DNA from: Verrucomicrobiia bacterium
Lineage (GTDB): Bacteria > Verrucomicrobiota > Verrucomicrobiia > Limisphaerales > Pedosphaeraceae
Length of the DNA: 64,000 nt
Direction: 5' to 3'
Assembly: GCA_036268055.1 (NCBI GenBank)
Contig: DATAUW010000009.1
Location: forward strand, 1-64,000
Every line of letters starts with the position of its first letter. Position 1 is the first letter of the stretch. Below are positions 19,198 to 51,432 of the stretch, piece by piece. Both the position numbers and the translations under genes were made by a program. The notes below the pieces were generated by a model, which saw nothing but the letters and a program-made list of their open reading frames with translations, ran no database searches and was not told the origin of the DNA.

Positions 19198-19399
19198 AAT
19201 TTTTGTAAACAGTAATTTGTATGCCTCGCTTAAACGCGAAACAGCCGGCCACTATAACTCACCCACTCAACAATGAAAGACCATTGTCAGCGTATAACAA
19301 CAAACCTAAAGCCGCCTCGTTAAGTTGGCTTCCAACCAAATTTGTAGGAACGAAATATTTCAGGGCGGACAAGTCGGAACTGCCGCTCCGCCATCCGAA

Positions 19400-19479
19400 G
19401 TCCCGCAGGGACGGCAGATCTTAGCCCAGCAATTTATTGCTGGGTTCCAATCGCTCCCATTCCAAGTCCCGTAAGGGAC
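19400..19479. repeat. Cluster of three short perfect hairpins, dispersed-repeat type
   Basis: Three perfect inverted repeats in 80 bases: GTCCC-GCA-GGGAC (19400-19412), CCCAGCAA-TTTA-TTGCTGGG (19425-19444) and GTCCC-GTAA-GGGAC (19466-19479). The outer two are near copies with the flanks AAGTCCCG and GGGACG. This looks like a unit of an intergenic repeat family; a related unit with a different hairpin is at 29434-29505. Confidence 0.7.
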
Positions 19480-20782: not shown

Positions 20783-21220
20783 TCACTCCCCCAACTTCTT
20801 CAACACCCCCGCCAACTTCGGCCCGACCCGTTTTAATTGCCGGCTATGCGCCCACGAAAGTTTCGCCAGCACACCTTCGCCCCGCGGTGTCAATCGGATG
20901 ATCACGCGCCGCCGATCTTCCGCCGAAGGCCGCCGCACCACCAGCTTCTCTGCCACCAGCCGGTCCACGAGCCCGACTGTGCTGTGATGTTTTAATTGCA
21001 AACGCTCCGCGAGTTCACCCACCGTCACCGCCTCGCGTTTCGGAAATCCTTTGATCGCGAGCAGTGCCTGATGCTGCTGCGACGTGATGCCCGCGTCGTG
21101 CGCCGCGTTTTCGCTGAAATGAATGAATCGCCGCAACGCGTAACGAAATTCCGCGAGCGCCTCATATTCTGCCTTGCCAAGCTGCTGTTTGATTCGTGCC
21201 ATGCGCAAACAAGATAACAT
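20783..21220 (-). CDS. MarR family transcriptional regulator
   Basis: 145-residue winged-helix dimeric repressor. The core VTVGELAERLQLKHHSTVGLVDRLVAEKLVVRRPSAEDRR, shown here only by its ends and length, is the typical helix-turn-helix plus wing of MarR; the DRRR wing tip and LTPRGEGVL are present. It is divergent from a ClC-type channel gene, with a perfect palindrome between them. It probably controls that gene and itself. An internal ATG at 21202 is an alternative start. The ligand is unknown. Confidence 0.9.
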   Translation of the reverse strand: MLSCLRMARIKQQLGKAEYEALAEFRYALRRFIHFSENAAHDAGITSQQHQALLAIKGFPKREAVTVGELAERLQLKHHSTVGLVDRLVAEKLVVRRPSAEDRRRVIIRLTPRGEGVLAKLSWAHSRQLKRVGPKLAGVLKKLGE

Positions 21221-21247: not shown

Positions 21248-21283
21248 TTGACATATATCGTGGCACGATATATTGTCATTCTG
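21248..21283 (+). promoter_or_regulatory. clc promoter with overlapping palindromic operator (probable MarR site)
   Basis: A consensus -35 TTGACA (21248-21253) and a -10-like TATTGT (21271-21276) are spaced by 17 bases. The spacer and -10 are covered by a perfect inverted repeat: arms ATATATCGTG (21253-21262) and CACGATATAT (21264-21273) around one G, extended by TGAC / GTCA with a one-base bulge. Binding here would block RNA polymerase directly. The expected transcription start falls at about the GTG start of clc (21283), implying a leaderless mRNA. Promoter function and MarR binding are inferred. Confidence 0.75.
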
Positions 21284-23094
21284 TGTTAACACAAACAGAG
21301 ACACTTGATCCTGCGGCCGCGACCCCTCGTCCTGCAGATGTTGAAATCGGGGCTGAATCGGATCTTCGCGATTTTACCACCAACCGCCGCGTTCTCACCT
21401 TGTCTGCGATGGCCTTGGTCATCGGCTCCATAAGTGCGGTCGTAGCTTACGTCCTGATCTGGCTGATCGCCGTCATCACCAATCTTTCCTTTTATCAAAA
21501 ATTTTCCTCCGCCTCGGCGGTGCCCCAGGGAAATCATCTCGGCGCGTGGGTGATCATTGTCCCGGTCATCGGCGCTTTGATCATCGGCGTGATGGCGCGT
21601 TTCGGTTCCGATAAGATTCGCGGTCACGGCATCCCGGAAGCGTTGGAGGCTATTCTTCTCGGGCGCAGCCGCATCCAGCCCAAAGTCGCACTTTTAAAAC
21701 CGATTTCCGCCGCCATCTCCATCGGCACCGGCGGCCCGTTTGGCGCGGAAGGCCCGATCATCATGACGGGCGGCGCGCTCGGTTCGATCTTCGCGCAGCA
21801 ATTTCACATGAGTGCCGCCGAGAGAAAAACCTTGCTCGCCGCCGGTGCGGCGGGCGGCATGGCCGCTATTTTTGCAACTCCGGTCGCCGCGGTCTTGCTC
21901 GCCGTCGAGCTTCTGTTGTTCGAGTGGAAGCCGCGCAGTTTTATTCCGGTCACTGTGGCCGCTGTGATGGCCTCCGTATTGCGCGTGCCGCTGCTCGGCG
22001 CGGGGCCGATTTTCCCGGTGCCACCTCACCTTGCATTGTCCGGTAATGAACTCCTCGTTGCGGCGGGCCTTGGCATTGTCACTGGATTTGCCTCCGGCCT
22101 TGTCACCAGCATCGTTTACGCCTGTGAAGATTTCTTTCACAAAATTCCGATTCATTGGATGTGGTGGCCCGCCATCGGCGCGGTCTTCGTCGGCATCGGC
22201 GGCTATATTGAACCGCGCGTCCTGGGCGTCGGTTACGATACGATTCACAGTCTTTTGAACGGCGACCTCATCGGCACGGTGGTGATCAGTCTGCTGGTTG
22301 CCAAGGCGGTTGTCTGGGCAATCGCGCTGGGCTCAGGAACCTCCGGCGGCGTTCTCGCGCCATTATTGATCATCGGTGGCGCGCTCGGCGCATTGCTCGG
22401 AAAATGGATTCCCATCGGCGACGCCGGTTTGTGGGCGACGATTTGCATGGCCGCAATGATGGGCGGCACAATGCGCGGTCCGTTGACTGCGGTAGTCTTC
22501 GCGGTCGAACTGACGCACGACTTCAATATCCTCCCCGCCTTGCTCATCGCTTCGGTGGCCTCGCTGGGCGTCACGGTTTTGTTGATGCGCCGTTCCATTC
22601 TCACCGAAAAACTCGCGCGCCGTGGCCAGCACGTCACTTGCGAATACAGTATTGACCCCTTCGAATTCGCGCGCGTTGGCGATGTCATGGAACGCGATGT
22701 TCCCACCGTGCCCGCGACTATGCTGCTGACCGAACTTTCCGATCGCATTGCCCAGAACGACCCCGCGCTGACCCGCCGCCAGGGCACGCTGGTGACGGAC
22801 GAGCAAAATCGTTTATACGGCATCATCACCCGCGGCGACATCGTCCGCGCCCTGCGCCAAAACGAAAATTCCACGATGACCGTTGGCGAGGCTTGCAGTA
22901 GCAATCTGGTCGTCGCTTATGCGGATGAACCTCTGCAAAACGCGCTGACCAAAATGCTCGACCGCAACATCGGCCGCCTTCCCGTCGTTGGCCGCAGCCA
23001 GCCGTCGAAAGTCATCGGCTATCTGGGCCGCGCCGCGATTCTCTCCGCTCGCCGGCGTCTGCACGAAGAGGAAAATATTCTTCAACGCGGCTAA
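21283..23094 (+). CDS. ClC-family chloride channel/antiporter with C-terminal CBS pair
   Basis: 603-residue integral membrane protein that moves chloride or a related anion. It has the ClC selectivity motifs RGHGIPEA, GGPFGAEGP (gating glutamate present) and GTSGGVLAPLL, spread over about 11 helices (residues about 38-430). A cytoplasmic CBS-domain pair follows (about 465-590; VMERDVPTVPAT and RNIGRLPVVG). The glutamate after GPFGA is that used by both gated channels and H+-coupled exchangers, so the mode is undecided. A start GTG lies next to the operator-promoter. The divergent MarR gene suggests control by an effector, possibly a toxic anion or acid stress. Confidence 0.92.
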   Translation: MLTQTETLDPAAATPRPADVEIGAESDLRDFTTNRRVLTLSAMALVIGSISAVVAYVLIWLIAVITNLSFYQKFSSASAVPQGNHLGAWVIIVPVIGALIIGVMARFGSDKIRGHGIPEALEAILLGRSRIQPKVALLKPISAAISIGTGGPFGAEGPIIMTGGALGSIFAQQFHMSAAERKTLLAAGAAGGMAAIFATPVAAVLLAVELLLFEWKPRSFIPVTVAAVMASVLRVPLLGAGPIFPVPPHLALSGNELLVAAGLGIVTGFASGLVTSIVYACEDFFHKIPIHWMWWPAIGAVFVGIGGYIEPRVLGVGYDTIHSLLNGDLIGTVVISLLVAKAVVWAIALGSGTSGGVLAPLLIIGGALGALLGKWIPIGDAGLWATICMAAMMGGTMRGPLTAVVFAVELTHDFNILPALLIASVASLGVTVLLMRRSILTEKLARRGQHVTCEYSIDPFEFARVGDVMERDVPTVPATMLLTELSDRIAQNDPALTRRQGTLVTDEQNRLYGIITRGDIVRALRQNENSTMTVGEACSSNLVVAYADEPLQNALTKMLDRNIGRLPVVGRSQPSKVIGYLGRAAILSARRRLHEEENILQRG

Positions 23095-24291: not shown

Positions 24292-25840
24292 ACTTGATCA
24301 CGAAGACCACGGCGTCTTTCGCGGGCCACGAATGCGCCGGTTGAATCACTAGCGCGTCCGGTGTTTGCTGCCATTGCAATTTTTCCCGGCTTCCCAGCAA
24401 AGTCACTTCAGTCACGGCCTTGTCCGCCGCGCCGCTCGCGAGGCCCAATGATTTTATTCGCAGCGCATCGCTGGGCACACCCAGCGCAATGGCATAAAGC
24501 GTTTTCCCGCGCGTGGTGAAACGAATGTCATTCGCATTGAACGCATAATTTTCCTTAAAGTTTCCGCCCGCCACGACCGTCGGCCCTTCGCCATAAATTT
24601 TCCACGGACGCGTTTTGAAAATCGCTTCGCCATTCACCTTCATCCACGCCGCCATCTCTTTCAGAAAAACTTCCATTTCCGGCGGCAAACTTCCGTCGGG
24701 ATATTGGACGACGTTCAAAAGCAAATTTCCATTTTTGCTCACGATGTCCGCCAACAGATGGATCACTTGCCCGGTCGTCTTGTATTGATCGTTCGTCCGA
24801 AAAAACCAATCGCCCGTTGAGGTATCCGTCTGCCACGGGTAAGGCTGAATATCGTGCATTCCTCCGCGCTCCACATCCTGCACGCACGAACTGTCAATGA
24901 ACTCGCCCGAATTAACTTTTTTACAATTATAAACCGCCTCCAACCGGCCGTGATGCCGAAGCATATTCGCATTATAAAATTGAGCCACCAGCGTGCGGCC
25001 CACGTCCCCGAACGGCATTCCGCCATCGCTATAGAGCAGGTCGGGATGATATTGATCCACGACATCATAAATGCGCGCAAACCATTCCTGATGCCATTCG
25101 GAATTGGTCGAATACCATGCTTTATCGCCCGTATCCGCAAGCGGATGATAAAGGTCCTGATACTTCGGGTCTGCGCCATCATAAGGCACACCAGCAAACG
25201 GACCAGTTTTGTCCGAGCGATGGCTGGCTTGAAACCACGTGAAACTCGCGCCGAGATGTTCCGAGACGCCAAAACGCAGTCCTTGTTTCAACGCCTCCTT
25301 TTGCCAAAGTCCTACAATATCTTTATGCGGCCCCATCTCCACGGCATTCCACTTGTGATATTTTGAATTCCAGTTATCAAAATTATCGTGATGCACCGCC
25401 TGTGCGACGAAATAATGCGCGCCCGCCTTTTTATAAAGCTCCATCAATCGCGCCGGGTTCCATTTTTCTGCATGCCATTGAGGAATAATGTCCTTGTAAC
25501 CATTCGTCGAAGGATGCCCGTAATCCGCGAGATGAAATTTATAATCCGGGCTGCCTTCCTCGTACATGATTCGCGCATACCAATCGCCATGTTCGGGAAC
25601 TGCCTGCGGTCCCCAATGCGCCCAAATGCCAAACTTCGCGTCACGAAACCAATCCGGACATTGGTACTCCTTTAGCGAATCGGTGGACGCCGTAAACTTT
25701 CCCTGAACCAAAGGAAGCTGCCCCGGCGCCGGAATCAAACGCGCGTTCGTCTCCGGCGGATACGCCGCCTGTGCGGCAGTTGCCAAAACGACAAAAGATA
25801 AAATCGCCGCGAGCACGCAAGCTGATGAATTTGTGGGCAT
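24281..25840 (-). CDS. Secreted alpha-L-fucosidase, GH29
   Basis: 519-residue exported glycosidase expected to release L-fucose from glycans by a retaining mechanism. A signal peptide occupies about residues 1-27 (ends ATAAQAA). The GH29 fold begins at FRDAKFGIWAHWGPQA, with later family blocks YFVAQAVHHDNFDNW, LLYSDGGMPFG (nucleophile Asp) and GNLLLNVVQYPDGSLP. A C-terminal beta-sandwich follows. The frame stays open far upstream to 26767, but that part lies opposite the HlyD gene; the ATG at 25840 with its signal peptide is the real start. It differs from the GH29 at 57896-59710 in the nucleophile context (YSDGG here, WFDGN there). Confidence 0.9.
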   Translation of the reverse strand: MPTNSSACVLAAILSFVVLATAAQAAYPPETNARLIPAPGQLPLVQGKFTASTDSLKEYQCPDWFRDAKFGIWAHWGPQAVPEHGDWYARIMYEEGSPDYKFHLADYGHPSTNGYKDIIPQWHAEKWNPARLMELYKKAGAHYFVAQAVHHDNFDNWNSKYHKWNAVEMGPHKDIVGLWQKEALKQGLRFGVSEHLGASFTWFQASHRSDKTGPFAGVPYDGADPKYQDLYHPLADTGDKAWYSTNSEWHQEWFARIYDVVDQYHPDLLYSDGGMPFGDVGRTLVAQFYNANMLRHHGRLEAVYNCKKVNSGEFIDSSCVQDVERGGMHDIQPYPWQTDTSTGDWFFRTNDQYKTTGQVIHLLADIVSKNGNLLLNVVQYPDGSLPPEMEVFLKEMAAWMKVNGEAIFKTRPWKIYGEGPTVVAGGNFKENYAFNANDIRFTTRGKTLYAIALGVPSDALRIKSLGLASGAADKAVTEVTLLGSREKLQWQQTPDALVIQPAHSWPAKDAVVFVIKFKR

Positions 25841-25845
25841 GAAAA

Positions 25846-25875
25846 ATATTAATCGAGAGCCGGGCGGTAAATCAA
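25846..25875 (-). promoter_or_regulatory. Candidate promoter of the fucosidase gene at 24281-25840
   Basis: On the minus strand TTGATT (25875-25870), an 18-base spacer, then TAATAT (25851-25846), five bases before the ATG at 25840. Both hexamers match consensus at four of six positions. It would give a nearly leaderless mRNA. Weak by itself. Confidence 0.35.
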
Positions 25876-39532: not shown

Positions 39533-40087
39533 TCAACCTTGCGCCGGGATCATTCCCGATTGGCGGGCGTAATTGAAAAGACCGCCGGCGTCCACTACCG
39601 GCCGCACATCGCCGAGCGGTTTGAACGAACACACTTTGCCGGTCGCCTTCACCGTGACGCTCGAGGCATCAAGATCAACCGTGACGACATCGCCCGTCTT
39701 GAGGACGTCGCAAAGCCGGTCTTTGCACTCGCAAGGATAAAGCTCGCCGGTGGCAACGCAGTTGCGGAAAAAAATCCGGGCAAAACTTTCGGCTAGAATA
39801 ATCCTGCAAGCGGCCGATCCCAGGGCAATCGGCGCGTGCTCGCGGGAACTGCCGCAGCCAAAATTGCGCCCGCCGACGACAATGGGATATTCGCTATCAA
39901 GCTGGCCGTCCTTGACAAAACGGGTCGGATACAGCGATTCGGGCAAACCGCACAACGCATAAGCGCCGAGCTTGATATATTCGTCGGGAATGGTCGGGAC
40001 GAGGTTCAGGTATTGCGCGGGAATGATTTGATCGGTGTCAATGTTGTCGCGCACCACATAAACCGGACCAGTAAAAACTGTTTGCAT
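39533..40087 (-). CDS. leuD: 3-isopropylmalate dehydratase small subunit
   Basis: Small swivelling subunit of the leucine-pathway isomerase. The 184-residue protein has NIDTDQIIPAQYL, the substrate loop NFGCGSSREHAP and IILAESFARIFFRNC, all characteristic of the archaeal/bacterial short LeuD type. It works with LeuC, which is not in the window; the two subunits are often adjacent, so here they appear separated or LeuC is elsewhere. The GH20 gene follows with a 15-base gap. Confidence 0.93.
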   Translation of the reverse strand: MQTVFTGPVYVVRDNIDTDQIIPAQYLNLVPTIPDEYIKLGAYALCGLPESLYPTRFVKDGQLDSEYPIVVGGRNFGCGSSREHAPIALGSAACRIILAESFARIFFRNCVATGELYPCECKDRLCDVLKTGDVVTVDLDASSVTVKATGKVCSFKPLGDVRPVVDAGGLFNYARQSGMIPAQG

Positions 40088-40150
40088 GCGGACAATTTGA
40101 CCCGTCGCGCGTGAGTTTTCAACCAGATTTAATTCGCGAGACGATTTGAC

Positions 40151-40418: not shown

Positions 40419-40452
40419 TTGCCCTGTGAAGGCGGCTTCCTATAATCGCGCG
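40419..40452 (+). promoter_or_regulatory. serS promoter, leaderless layout
   Basis: TTGCCC (40419-40424), a 16-base spacer, and a perfect -10 TATAAT (40441-40446), followed by six bases and the ATG at 40453. Transcription is expected to start at or next to the A of the start codon. No Shine-Dalgarno sequence precedes the ATG. Confidence 0.7.
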
Positions 40453-41754
40453 ATGTTGGATATCAAATTGATCCGCGAACAAACGGATAAGGTCCGCCAG
40501 CGGCTCGCCACGCGCGGGGCAGGGGACGAGACCAAGCTTGACGAAATTTTGAAATACGACGAGCAGCGGCGCAAGCTGCTTGTCGAAGTCGAAGGTTTGA
40601 AGGCGCAACGCAACCGTGTGTCCAAGGAAATCGGCGCGTTGATGGGCCAGAAAAAAAATGCTGAAGCCGAGGAAAAGAAAAAGGAAACGCGCGATCTTGG
40701 CGACAAAATAACGGACCTCGACAAACAGGCCGCGGCCGCTGAGGCCTCGCGCGACGATTTGATGTTGCGCCTGCCGAATGTTCCGCACGATACGGTGACG
40801 GTTGGCAAAACTGCGGAAGAAAATCCCGAAATGCGCACGTGGGGCGCAAAGCCGGATTTTGCTTTCAAGCCGAAATCGCACACGGAATTATGTGAGAGTT
40901 TGAAGCTGGTGGATTTTGCGCGCGGGGCAAAGCTTTCCGGCAGCGGATTTTTGCTTTACACAAATTGGGGCGCGAAGCTCGAACGTGCGCTGATTCAATT
41001 TCTGCTGGAGTTGCACACGAGCCAGCACGGTTACACGGAAGTTTCACCGCCCTACATCATCAGCCAGGAATGCATGACCGGCGTGGGGCAATTCCCAAAA
41101 TTTTTCGACCAGGCTTACGCGGTGCAGGAAGGCCAGGACAACTCCACGCTCGGAAAACTTTATTTGCTGCCGACCGCCGAGGCGCCGGTGGCAAACATTC
41201 ATCGCGAAGAAATTTTGCCGGAGAAACAATTACCGATTCAATATTGCGCCTACAGTCCATGCTTCCGCGCGGAAGCGGGCGCGGCGGGCGTCGGCACGCG
41301 CGGGATGATTCGCGTGCATCAGTTCGACAAAGTCGAACTCATCAAAATCACGAAACCCGAGCACGGCTATAATGAATTGGAAAAACTCGTCGCGAACGCC
41401 GAACGCGTGTTGCAAATGCTCGGTCTGCATTATCGTGTGATCATGCTATGCACGGGCGACATGGGTTTCACCAGCGCGAAGACTTACGACATCGAGGTTT
41501 GGGCGCCAGGGCAGGGACAGTATCTCGAAGTTTCAAGTTGCTCCAACTGCGAAGATTTCCAGGCGCGGCGCATGGGCCTGAGATTCAAGACCGAGACGGG
41601 CGAAAATAAATTTCCACACATTCTCAACGGCAGCGGAACCGCGCTCGCGCGATTGTTCGTCGCCTTGCTCGAGACGTATCAACAGGCGGACGGCAGTGTG
41701 CTCGTGCCGGCGCCGTTACAACCTTTCCTCAAAACCGATCGCATCAAGAATTAA
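40453..41754 (+). CDS. serS: Seryl-tRNA synthetase
   Basis: Charges tRNA-Ser. From the ATG at 40453 (433 residues) it starts MLDIKLIREQTDKVRQRL, the standard opening of the N-terminal antiparallel coiled coil (to about residue 105). Class II motifs follow: motif 2 in YSPCFRAEAGAAGVGTRGMIRVHQF and motif 3 in NGSGTALARLFVALLE. Frame upstream of 40453 (to 40426) is open but holds the -10 element, so the internal ATG is chosen. Length is normal. Confidence 0.95.
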   Translation: MLDIKLIREQTDKVRQRLATRGAGDETKLDEILKYDEQRRKLLVEVEGLKAQRNRVSKEIGALMGQKKNAEAEEKKKETRDLGDKITDLDKQAAAAEASRDDLMLRLPNVPHDTVTVGKTAEENPEMRTWGAKPDFAFKPKSHTELCESLKLVDFARGAKLSGSGFLLYTNWGAKLERALIQFLLELHTSQHGYTEVSPPYIISQECMTGVGQFPKFFDQAYAVQEGQDNSTLGKLYLLPTAEAPVANIHREEILPEKQLPIQYCAYSPCFRAEAGAAGVGTRGMIRVHQFDKVELIKITKPEHGYNELEKLVANAERVLQMLGLHYRVIMLCTGDMGFTSAKTYDIEVWAPGQGQYLEVSSCSNCEDFQARRMGLRFKTETGENKFPHILNGSGTALARLFVALLETYQQADGSVLVPAPLQPFLKTDRIKN

Positions 41755-44543: not shown

Positions 44544-45557
44544 ATGAGACCTTTTCGCACGTTAATGACATTGAAAACAGACATTATCCTGGGCGATTGC
44601 CGGGACATTTTGAGGCAATTTCAACCAGCGACTTTCGATCTCATCGTCACATCTCCGCCTTACGCAGACCAGAGAAGCAAAACCTATGGAGGGATTAAGC
44701 CTGACAAATATGTGAGTTGGTTTTTGGAATGCAGCGCGGAGTTTCGCCGGGTGCTGAAACCGTCCGGGACTTTTATTTTAAATATCAAAGAAAAGGTGCA
44801 AGAAGGTGAACGGCACATTTACGTTTTGGAATTGATATTAGCGCTTCGAAAACAAGGCTGGCTTTGGACGGAGGAATTTATTTGGCACAAACGAAATTGT
44901 CATCCCGGGAAATGGCCAAATCGCTTCCGTGATGCTTGGGAACGCTGCTTGCAATTTAATATTCAGCGCGATTTCAAAATGTTTCAGGAACAAGTGATGG
45001 TGCCAATGGGCGATTGGCGGCACGCTCGATTAAAGAATCTAAGCGAGACGGATAAGAGGCGCGACAACTCGAAAGTCGAAAGTGGTTTTGGAAAAAGAAT
45101 TGCCAACTGGGTCGGTCGCGATCTCGCATATCCGTCGAACGTGCTCCACTTTGCAACCGAATGTAGTAATAAAAATCACTCGGCGGCATTTCCCAAGGCG
45201 CTTCCAGAATGGTTTATAAAGTTATTTACGCAATCCGGAGATTGGGTTCTCGACCCATTCGCCGGTTCGGGCACCACAAATGTTGTGGCTCGCGAACTTG
45301 GCAGAAACTCGGTGGGAATTGACAAAATGACGGAAAACGTCATCCTCGCAAAAAAATATTTAGACCAAACAGATCGGATACCCAATGGCACTGGTCAGCA
45401 TAACGGAAATCACAAAGTTCGTAGAGGCAAACATCCCAAACTTTCACAATTCAAAGTTGGAACGATTGAAGCAACTCCCGCTTCTGAAAGTGCTCTCACG
45501 CAAGAATCCCTATTTATTGAAAGCAAAGGGCCTCGCTACACCTCGAAATCTCGTTAA
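44544..45557 (+). CDS. Site-specific DNA methyltransferase (beta-class, N4-cytosine or N6-adenine)
   Basis: 337 residues that modify DNA to protect against the downstream nuclease. Motif IV TSPPYADQR comes first (about residue 36) and the SAM-binding motif I, LDPFAGSGTT, comes late (about 236), the order of beta-class enzymes. TSPPY is common in N4-cytosine enzymes. The last about 60 residues (after LAKKYLDQTD) lack family features and overlap the nuclease gene in another frame. An internal ATG at 44565 is an alternative start. Lower GC than the neighbours suggests transfer. Confidence 0.9.
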   Translation: MRPFRTLMTLKTDIILGDCRDILRQFQPATFDLIVTSPPYADQRSKTYGGIKPDKYVSWFLECSAEFRRVLKPSGTFILNIKEKVQEGERHIYVLELILALRKQGWLWTEEFIWHKRNCHPGKWPNRFRDAWERCLQFNIQRDFKMFQEQVMVPMGDWRHARLKNLSETDKRRDNSKVESGFGKRIANWVGRDLAYPSNVLHFATECSNKNHSAAFPKALPEWFIKLFTQSGDWVLDPFAGSGTTNVVARELGRNSVGIDKMTENVILAKKYLDQTDRIPNGTGQHNGNHKVRRGKHPKLSQFKVGTIEATPASESALTQESLFIESKGPRYTSKSR

Positions 45558-46128
45558 AGCCATTTTAGATGCGCATTTGTCGTCTCAGGAGGAAACCATA
45601 CTTGGTGGATTCCTCGAAGATTTGGCGATTTTTATTTGCACAAAGGCCTACAAAGCGCACGGAAAATCTACAACGACTGGATTGGATCTCGAATTCGACA
45701 AAGATGGAAAGCGTTGCTTGGTGGCTATTAAATCTGGCCCCGCCTGGGGCAATAGCAGTCAGATCGAAAAAATGAGATCGGATTTTAAAACGGCTGCGAA
45801 GGTTTATCGCCAAAATAGAGCTGCGCTTCCGGTAATGTGTGTTAATGGATGCTGTTACGGGAAGCAGGCCAAAAGCGTTGAAGATAAAGGTGACTACGTA
45901 AAACTTTGCGGACAACGATTTTGGGCGTTCATTTCAGGAGACTCGCAACTTTATATCAAATTAATTGAACCAATCGGTCACAATGCGACGGAAAGAAACG
46001 CGCAATTTTTAGCACAGTACGAATTGGTTGTTGATGAATTTACAGATTTATTTCGGAAGAATTTTTGCGATAAAGATAATAATATACTTTGGGAAAAGTT
46101 GACTAAAGCCTCGTCTCAAGCCCCATAA
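45385..46128 (+). CDS. Type II restriction endonuclease, probably PmeII-like
   Basis: 247 residues that pair with the upstream methyltransferase. The nuclease core shows a PD-(D/E)xK type arrangement: GLDLEFDKDGKRCLVAIKSGPAWGN is represented here by its Asp and the AIKSGP strand, about 18 residues apart, and the block SSEET-like SSQEETILGGFLEDLA precedes it. The KSGP-x-WGNS-x-Q pattern recalls the PmeII family; recognition from memory, not from a search. The ATG at 45385 lies within the methyltransferase gene (173-base out-of-frame overlap), and the N-terminal FHNSKLERL...KNPYLLKAKGL looks genuine. Recognition sequence unknown. Confidence 0.82.
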   Translation: MALVSITEITKFVEANIPNFHNSKLERLKQLPLLKVLSRKNPYLLKAKGLATPRNLVKAILDAHLSSQEETILGGFLEDLAIFICTKAYKAHGKSTTTGLDLEFDKDGKRCLVAIKSGPAWGNSSQIEKMRSDFKTAAKVYRQNRAALPVMCVNGCCYGKQAKSVEDKGDYVKLCGQRFWAFISGDSQLYIKLIEPIGHNATERNAQFLAQYELVVDEFTDLFRKNFCDKDNNILWEKLTKASSQAP

Positions 46129-50305: not shown

Positions 50306-51397
50306 TCACGCCGTGGCGTGAGTCGCACAACCTTCGGACGAGCAACCGCAGCCAGCCTCATCCTGGTCGGCAAAATCATGGTTGTCCCAGCTCGGATCGA
50401 GGCCAAGGTCTTTGAGCATCTGCAAATCTTTTTCCACTGGCTGATTCAAAGTGGTGAGATAATTCCCCACCATCAGTGCGCTTGCGCCCGCCGTGAAGAT
50501 CATGCTCTGCATGTCGCGTAAATTAATCGTGCGCCCGCCCGCAATCATGATTTCTTTCTTCGGCAGCACGAAACGAAAACACGCGATGGTCTTCAATATT
50601 TCCATCGGCGGCAGCGGTGGATTTTTCTCGAATGGCGTGCCGGGAATCGGATTGAGAATATTGATCGGCACCACATTCGCGCCGACTTCTTTAAGAGAAA
50701 ACGCCAGGTCACAACGGTCTTCGCGCGTCTCACCCATACCGATGATGCCGCCGGAACAAATCTTGATGCCCGCTTTTTTCAGGTAACCGATGGTTTCAAT
50801 GCGGTCCTCGTAACTGTGCGTGGTGCATTGGCTCGGGAAAAAGCGTCGCGATGTTTCAAGATTATGGCCATAGCATTCGAGCCCGGCTTCCTTGAGGCGA
50901 TCGGCAACTTTTTGGCTTTTGATGATGCCCAGCGAGGCGTCGGGGCGCGTCTTCCCGCTTTGGGCAAGATCACGAATCCGGTCGCACACTTCGTCCAGCA
51001 TCGGTCCTTCATTCAAACCCTTCCACGCAGCCACCAACCCGACTGCGGTGACACCGTGTTTGTTGGCTTCATCCGCCGCGTCCAAAACCGGCTCTGGATC
51101 AACGAATCCATAGCGCGGTGAACCCGTTTGATGAAACGACGATTGCGCGCAAAAACTGCAATTCTCAGAACAAGCGCCCGCCTTGGCGTTGACGATGGAA
51201 CAGAGATGGATTTTGTTGCCTTTGAAATGCTCGCGGATGCGATTAGACCACGACATCAAATCAAAAATATCCCCGGCGCTTTCGAGGCTGAAAAGCCAAA
51301 GCGCCTCGTCACGGGTGACTTGGCCGCCGTTAAGAACGCGGCGTCCCAATGCGGCCAATCGGTCGTGATTATTTGCGTCAATCAATGTTCCGCTCAT
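50306..51397 (-). CDS. bioB: Biotin synthase
   Basis: Radical SAM enzyme that inserts sulfur into dethiobiotin. The 363-residue protein has the [4Fe-4S] motif CSENCSFC, the downstream YGHNLETS, CSGGIIGMGE and GGRTINLRDMQ blocks. The C-terminus ends in a short tail with GCGCSSEGC, four clustered cysteines not needed by the core enzyme. I chose the ATG at 51397 because a promoter places the transcript start near it; an ATG at 51409 would overlap the -10 element. The M14 peptidase gene is downstream in the same direction. No other biotin genes are in the window. Confidence 0.95.
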   Translation of the reverse strand: MSGTLIDANNHDRLAALGRRVLNGGQVTRDEALWLFSLESAGDIFDLMSWSNRIREHFKGNKIHLCSIVNAKAGACSENCSFCAQSSFHQTGSPRYGFVDPEPVLDAADEANKHGVTAVGLVAAWKGLNEGPMLDEVCDRIRDLAQSGKTRPDASLGIIKSQKVADRLKEAGLECYGHNLETSRRFFPSQCTTHSYEDRIETIGYLKKAGIKICSGGIIGMGETREDRCDLAFSLKEVGANVVPINILNPIPGTPFEKNPPLPPMEILKTIACFRFVLPKKEIMIAGGRTINLRDMQSMIFTAGASALMVGNYLTTLNQPVEKDLQMLKDLGLDPSWDNHDFADQDEAGCGCSSEGCATHATA

Positions 51398-51432
51398 GGT
51401 TGACAGCATAACGAAATAGCGTGGGAAGGCAA
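51398..51432 (-). promoter_or_regulatory. bioB promoter, near-leaderless layout
   Basis: On the minus strand TTGCCT (51432-51427), a 16-base spacer, TATGCT (51410-51405), then seven bases before the ATG at 51397. Same -35 core (TTGCC) and spacer as at serS. Confidence 0.55.

Follow-up and report, generated by a model that had tools for sequence, protein, structure and literature searches.

The window analysed here covers positions 1-64000 of contig C9, one of 41 contigs in a 5.1-Mb Verrucomicrobiota genome, probably of the Limisphaerales (G000 in all counts). It contains serS, encoding seryl-tRNA synthetase, at 40453..41754 (+; Pfam Seryl_tRNA_N and tRNA-synt_2b). Its ATG (40453), which begins the peptide MLDIK, follows a promoter-like sequence (40419..40446, +) with a -35 element TTGCCC at 40419-40424 and a -10 element TATAAT at 40441-40446, giving the full layout TTGCCC-16-TATAAT-6-ATG at 40419-40455 (+). 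The gap, here and below, is the number of nucleotides between the end of the -10 box and the start codon. The biotin synthase gene bioB (50306..51397, -; Pfam BATS and Radical_SAM) is preceded by TTGCCT (51432-51427) and TATGCT (51410-51405; promoter 51405..51432, -), arranged as TTGCCT-16-TATGCT-7-ATG at 51395-51432 (-). Two further genes have comparable upstream sequences: clc, encoding a CLC chloride channel, with TTGACA-17-TATTGT-6-GTG (21248..21285, +; GTG 21283), which can also be read as TTGACA-15-TATATT-8-GTG, and an alpha-L-fucosidase gene with a putative promoter TTGATT-18-TAATAT-5-ATG (25838..25875, -; ATG at 25840). A first-pass annotation had proposed these four layouts, and all of them match the sequence exactly; the four gene identities were confirmed by Pfam. 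It had not included a LeuD-like gene (39533..40087, -; Pfam Aconitase_C), whose family and length suggest the small subunit of 3-isopropylmalate dehydratase. The predicted promoter of this gene (40095..40122, -) consists of TTGAAA (40122-40117), 16-17 nt, TCAAAT (40100-40095) or CAAATT one base on, and 6-7 nt before the ATG at 40087. The gaps of serS (6), bioB (7) and the LeuD-like gene (6-7) are those expected of leaderless genes.

Conservation of the promoter layouts

The serS, LeuD-like and bioB layouts recur within the order. For serS, found in 37 genomes, 30 order-level loci were compared, G000 included. Of these loci, 18 have TATAAT and 20 have TANNNT ending 5-7 nt upstream of the start, other three-position windows holding 0-2 of 30, and TTGC, TTGG or TTGA lies within -40 to -27 in 29/30. 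The LeuD-like gene has a match at E <= 1e-30 in 39/40 genomes, from which 30 loci were taken; one was too short to score, and the best site of the remaining 29 has a gap of 6-9 and a score of at least 5 in 28. bioB was matched at E <= 0.001 in 40/40 genomes, though the weakest hits are only distant homologues, and 30 order-level loci were aligned by tblastn; of the 27 that were scored, G000 among them, 25 have their best -10 element at a gap of 7. Conservation over 30 loci each strongly supports the predicted promoter layout of all three genes. Because their layouts recur in relatives, those of serS and bioB are each far beyond chance taken singly, and the best reading of both is transcription that is leaderless or yields a leader of 0-3 nt, as the first-pass annotation had held in placing the transcript start on or beside the start codon.

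That proposal had extended to clc and the fucosidase gene, where it fares differently. A leaderless clc, with its exact promoter string, is plausible in the window genome, but in three of the compared loci (8 of 10, G000 included), the relatives L186-L188, a similar promoter is followed by a likely ATG 13-16 nt after the -10 box, so the length of the leader drifts and is not conserved. The fucosidase start was also picked by a gene finder that uses coding potential and no upstream signal, and its promoter string is exact, but 0/10 other loci align at that start. Judged from these alignments, clc in relatives does not stand as a conserved leaderless gene, and the fucosidase gene lacks comparative support as one. 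The first-pass annotation had the correct mechanism for two of its four genes and overlooked one further conserved gene, the LeuD-like one.

If the start codons were misplaced, translation would begin at a downstream in-frame codon and the transcripts would have ordinary short leaders. The likely ATG of the clc relatives, two or more codons further on, fits such a reading, as does the approximate nature of the start calls. It is opposed by M/V-LDIK at the aligned serS start in 24/30 rows (the 30 include L017 and L023, taken in the wrong orientation), by an ATG or GTG right behind the operator half-site described below in 25/30 bioB loci, and by the opening codons of the LeuD-like gene, which recur in most rows. 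We give misplaced starts hardly any credence, and retain the leaderless reading for these three genes.

The clc promoter is itself overlain by a perfect inverted repeat with 10-bp arms, ATATATCGTG-G-CACGATATAT (21253..21273), which outer TGAC/GTCA tetramers (21249-21252, 21275-21278) flank with an offset of one base. A TATCGT-NNN-ACGATA-like core is present before clc in 6/8 loci, G000 included. The repeat lies between clc and a divergent gene for a MarR-family regulator (20783..21202, -; Pfam MarR_2; start by gene finder, longest ORF to 21220) and is a probable operator of this MarR gene.

Predicted promoters at start codons and Shine-Dalgarno use across genomes

The genome-wide sample comprised 830 kb, that is 766 kb in stretches plus the 64-kb window, a non-random 16% of the genome. 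Its 541 genes were called from coding potential alone, with upstream signals unused, and the 533 with a called upstream neighbour were classified as leading or operon-internal. Gene starts obtained in this way are approximate; at serS, GTG 40426 was chosen instead of ATG 40453. Within the window by itself, a search for the generic layout gave 9 matches with ATG or GTG, which is not significant against 4.5 +/- 2.2 in 30 shuffles, and 4 with ATG only (2.5 +/- 1.6 in shuffles). A search for TANNNT before start codons against shuffled controls, as suggested in the first-pass annotation, yielded 34 of 345 leading genes whose box ends 4-8 nt upstream of the start, compared with 20.5 +/- 4.4 after shuffling (maximum 38 in 200 runs). 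The enrichment of TANNNT alone in the 830-kb sample is weak; as a genome-wide test it was dropped for a joint -35/-10 score, with which the enrichment at 5-8 nt is clear. The leading genes of G000 show further excesses of TANNNT at gaps 1 (15 genes) and 13 (12 genes), where about 4 would be usual for one position. An exact consensus pattern searched over the whole genome gave 4 matches, including serS, against 1 for a reversed-pattern control, and was set aside as evidence.

The joint score is sigma70-like, with a match threshold of at least 6 in the genome-wide counts, and was applied to 406 leading or near-leading genes and to 127 operon-internal genes. A -35/-10 pair at gaps 5-8 was found in 39 of the 406, compared with 12.9 +/- 3.3 (maximum 26 in 200 runs) when columns were permuted among genes, a procedure that keeps the base composition of each position. 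The matches number 4, 13, 18 and 8 at gaps 5, 6, 7 and 8 and peak at 6-7 nt, whereas gaps 20-69 supply a background of 3.34 for each position (n=406 throughout); the Poisson probability of at least 31 matches at gaps 6-7 is 7e-12. The operon-internal genes contribute 1 match at gaps 5-8 (n=127). When the upstream part was swapped among genes, 24.0 +/- 3.8 (maximum 36) were obtained at gaps 5-8, so the -35 and -10 elements go together in the observed 39. The difference between 39 and 12.9 corresponds to about 26/406 genes (6%) of the leaderless type beyond expectation, and about one third of the 39 candidates are expected by chance. The candidates start mostly with ATG (37/39, versus 291/367 other genes; Fisher p=0.017). 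Pfam was run on 20 of the 39 together (3 without a family) and on bioB, the LeuD-like gene and the fucosidase gene. The domains found among these candidates of the sample genome include those of DNA polymerase III alpha, glucose-6-phosphate dehydrogenase, glycine dehydrogenase, enoyl-ACP reductase/short-chain dehydrogenase, tyrosine recombinase and GreA/GreB.

These counts bear on whether the -10-like boxes reflect chance or composition, A+T-rich DNA near start codons yielding TANNNT while the real promoters lie upstream. The TANNNT result (34 versus 20.5 +/- 4.4, with shuffles up to 38), the generic count of the window, about 2 sd above its shuffles, and a fucosidase site without comparative support would all sit well with this explanation. 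It does not account for the surplus of 39 over 12.9 +/- 3.3 under a permutation that preserves composition, nor for a peak placed at 6-7 nt, and with the geometry kept across the order it becomes highly improbable at serS, bioB and the LeuD-like gene. As a general explanation we find it very improbable, and we keep to promoters located at the start codon.

The excess is seen in some genomes and absent from others. With the joint score at gaps 5-8, G007, of the same family, gave 5/71 against a permuted mean of 1.7, an observed value surpassed by at least one of 100 permutations (maximum 6). In the same class, G060 gave 12/94 (permuted 2.5, maximum 8) and G057 5/108 (0.7, maximum 3). There was no excess in G174, from the same phylum and another class (1/105; permuted 3.4), or in Escherichia coli K-12 (0/106; permuted 2.3).

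Shine-Dalgarno (SD) 4-mers were counted in the same genomes. They precede 19/345 leading genes of G000 (5.5%; background 7.6%), which is no enrichment, and the leading genes of G007 (7.0%; background 8.5%), G060 (7.4%; 10.3%) and G057 (7.4%; 10.5%) show no excess either, in contrast to those of G174 (35%; 5.7%) and E. coli (30%; 5.0%). Before operon-internal genes there is a mild excess in G000 (16/127, 12.6%, versus 7.3% background) and, in small samples, in G007 (3/15) and G057 (3/22), with none in an equally small sample from G060 (1/30). As the first-pass annotation stated, none of the four starts it named has an SD sequence upstream, but leading genes generally lack SD enrichment, and a missing SD sequence before a gene is non-diagnostic of leaderless transcription here. 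The 16S sequence of the window genome is partial (model positions 9-873), and the anti-SD was therefore read in relatives. CCTCC occurs at the 3' end in 11/11 order-level relatives with a complete 16S, from which the anti-SD reads as intact in the order.

A broader set of 80 named serS loci was divided into 33 taken as Verrucomicrobiota and 46 from other phyla, L042 being dropped because its start was missing; L034 and L065 were counted as Verrucomicrobiota although their titles do not name the phylum. Among the 33 Verrucomicrobiota records, the best site has a gap of 5-8 and a score of at least 6 in 17 and a gap of 9-10 in 6 more, and an SD sequence precedes serS in 0/33. In the 46 loci from other phyla, serS has a gap 5-8 site in 2 cases and an SD sequence in 36. 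Outside the class, SD was found in 22/27 and a gap 5-8 site in 0/27. In the other families of the class, a gap 5-8 site scoring at least 6 was found in only 1/13 representatives, with SD in 0/13, which counts against a simple class-wide story. The serS genes in three records titled 'Akkermansia muciniphila' (L040, L048 and L049) are 77, 58 and 57% identical to that of the window, and at least L040 seems unreliably titled.

The bioB start region and its putative BirA-type operator

In bioB, the start codon lies within a putative BirA-type operator, GTCAACC-N14-GATTGAC (51377..51404, -), a pattern conserved at the bioB start. The left half is located between the -10 element and the ATG, the right half occupies the last base of codon 5 to codon 7, and the centre is 4 nt downstream of the start codon. 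GTCANNN-N14-NNTTGAC is found in the start region of 27/30 order-level loci. The ATG or GTG is immediately 3' of the left half in 25 of the 30, and in two other loci an ATG stands 3 nt further from it. Residue 6 varies in the 27 loci (Val 19, Ile 4, Phe 3, Leu 1), yet 28/30 loci, including L179, have T as the last base of its codon and GAC as the next one, 27 of them by requirement of the pattern; GTT makes up just 17% of the Val codons of the sample, and GAC 47% of its Asp codons. Selection on the DNA would be the best reason for the maintenance of codons 5-7. The genome has a second copy of GTCAACC-N13-15-NNTTGAC (2 in total), which was set aside as it lies inside a long unrelated coding frame.

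The published BirA operator consensus is TTGTAAACC-N14/15-GGTTTACAA, and the Geobacter sulfurreducens bioB site is given as TTGTcAACC-N14-aGTTgACAA (PMC545781). The bioB palindrome follows this form, with a 14/15-nt spacer and TTGTnAACC-like halves, although the outer TT reads CT in G000. Its half-sites and N14 spacing are those listed, as GTCAACC/GGTTGAC, for bioB and bioF of Geobacter (PMC545781), and the window genome encodes a BirA-like biotin protein ligase (L277) with HTH_11 and BPL domains, the helix-turn-helix expected of a repressor of this kind being present. The position is different: the predicted site stretches across a leaderless start codon, whereas the Desulfuromonas and Geobacter sites listed there lie at -63 to -182, with one Desulfovibrio vulgaris site listed at 6 (PMC545781). 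Among the open-licence PMC papers listed for BirA, the biotin operator, bioB and Verrucomicrobia, no title concerns such an operator.

The element touches both the -10 box and the start codon, and could accordingly be imagined as a signal for leaderless translation or for the start of transcription instead of an operator. Such a signal would be hard to reconcile with its absence at serS and the LeuD-like gene, with an inverted repeat that has the 14-nt spacing and half-sites of published BirA sites (PMC545781), and with a right half kept at the DNA level, where codon 6 preserves T-GAC in 28/30 loci whether it encodes Val, Ile, Leu or Phe. We regard a non-operator role as quite unlikely. An operator spanning the -10 element, the start codon and codons 5-7 means that BirA carrying biotinyl-AMP would block the bioB promoter. 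With a BirA site across the bioB start, the repressor site would dictate codons 6-7, and the signals for repressor, polymerase and ribosome would share one stretch of DNA.

Leaderless transcription within the phylum

Some of the operon-leading genes, an excess of about 6% in the sample, are highly likely to be transcribed from sigma70-type promoters into leaderless mRNAs that initiate without SD pairing, bioB being blocked by BirA. In this scheme, ordinary sigma70-type promoters with a -10 element ending 6-7 nt before the start codon would direct RNA polymerase to begin at the first base of the start codon or about 3 nt from it, and the ribosome would accept the leaderless mRNAs without SD pairing. 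serS, bioB and the LeuD-like gene would be conserved cases of this kind within the order, and BirA-biotinyl-AMP would act at the bioB promoter. Transcript starts, ribosome behaviour, BirA binding and the occlusion by BirA of the -10 element and transcript start are what we infer from sequence.

Leaderless transcription is already known by experiment in this phylum, and the suggestion in the first-pass annotation that it had not been noted there fails. In a Cappable-seq study, about 10% of high-confidence starts in Akkermansia muciniphila coincide with annotated gene starts, compared with 15% in Bifidobacterium pseudolongum and 0.4% in E. coli (PMC4782308). A. muciniphila resembles the window genome in phylum and in having a -35 element and TATAAT upstream of such starts (PMC4782308); it differs in that leaderless starts were measured there and are predicted here, that it belongs to another order, and that conservation among orthologues is shown here. 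In the Deinococcus-Thermus group, the average proportion of leaderless genes is given as 39% (PMC3160421) or about 30% (PMC12340547), against about 6% of leading genes beyond expectation for the layout described here. The leaderless genes reported for that group and for Actinobacteria share with ours a TANNNT -10 element about 12 nt before the start and the lack of SD (PMC3160421, PMC12340547), whereas in the window genome a recognisable -35 element accompanies the -10. The word "Verrucomicrobia" is absent from the main text of PMC3160421, and "verrucomicrobi" from that of PMC12340547. Among open-licence PMC papers, judged by title and abstract opening, there was no other study of leaderless genes in Verrucomicrobia or Akkermansia, and no paper was found for leaderless together with 'Limisphaer'. 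Akkermansia is described as SD-scarce with a conserved CCUCC (PMC10783764), a condition similar to leading genes without SD enrichment and CCTCC kept in 11/11 relatives; in the part of that source at hand, Akkermansia and Verrucomicrobia bacterium IMCC26134 are named and Limisphaerales are not (PMC10783764).

The conserved cases in Limisphaerales housekeeping genes (serS, bioB and LeuD-like) suggest that leaderless transcription is under selection there, and the genes with DNA polymerase III alpha, glucose-6-phosphate dehydrogenase and glycine dehydrogenase domains stand alongside them as unconfirmed candidates. Starts in such genomes may be misplaced by gene finders guided by SD sequences.

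We take the class of the window genome to be Verrucomicrobiae, and presumably Akkermansia is placed in the same class. On that assignment, we consider it rather probable, with less assurance than for the leaderless promoters as such, that Limisphaerales bioB fuses a leaderless sigma70 promoter, a start codon and a BirA operator within about 55 bp and, at the same time, that leaderless transcription and SD loss form a trait of the class that is absent in other classes of the phylum. If so, the switch would have taken place inside the phylum. What deserves further attention is how the operator is arranged at bioB and where the boundary runs at class level, and comparison with a phylum member that uses SD sequences offers a place to study their loss while the anti-SD is kept.

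Elsewhere in the window, at 44544-46128 (+), an ORF with a DNA methylase domain is followed by one that overlaps it and belongs to the EcoO109I restriction endonuclease family; both are absent from the coding-potential gene calls. They are probably a type II restriction-modification pair. On the opposite strand, 19399-19444 (-) matches the Rfam family Acido-Lenti-1 RNA.
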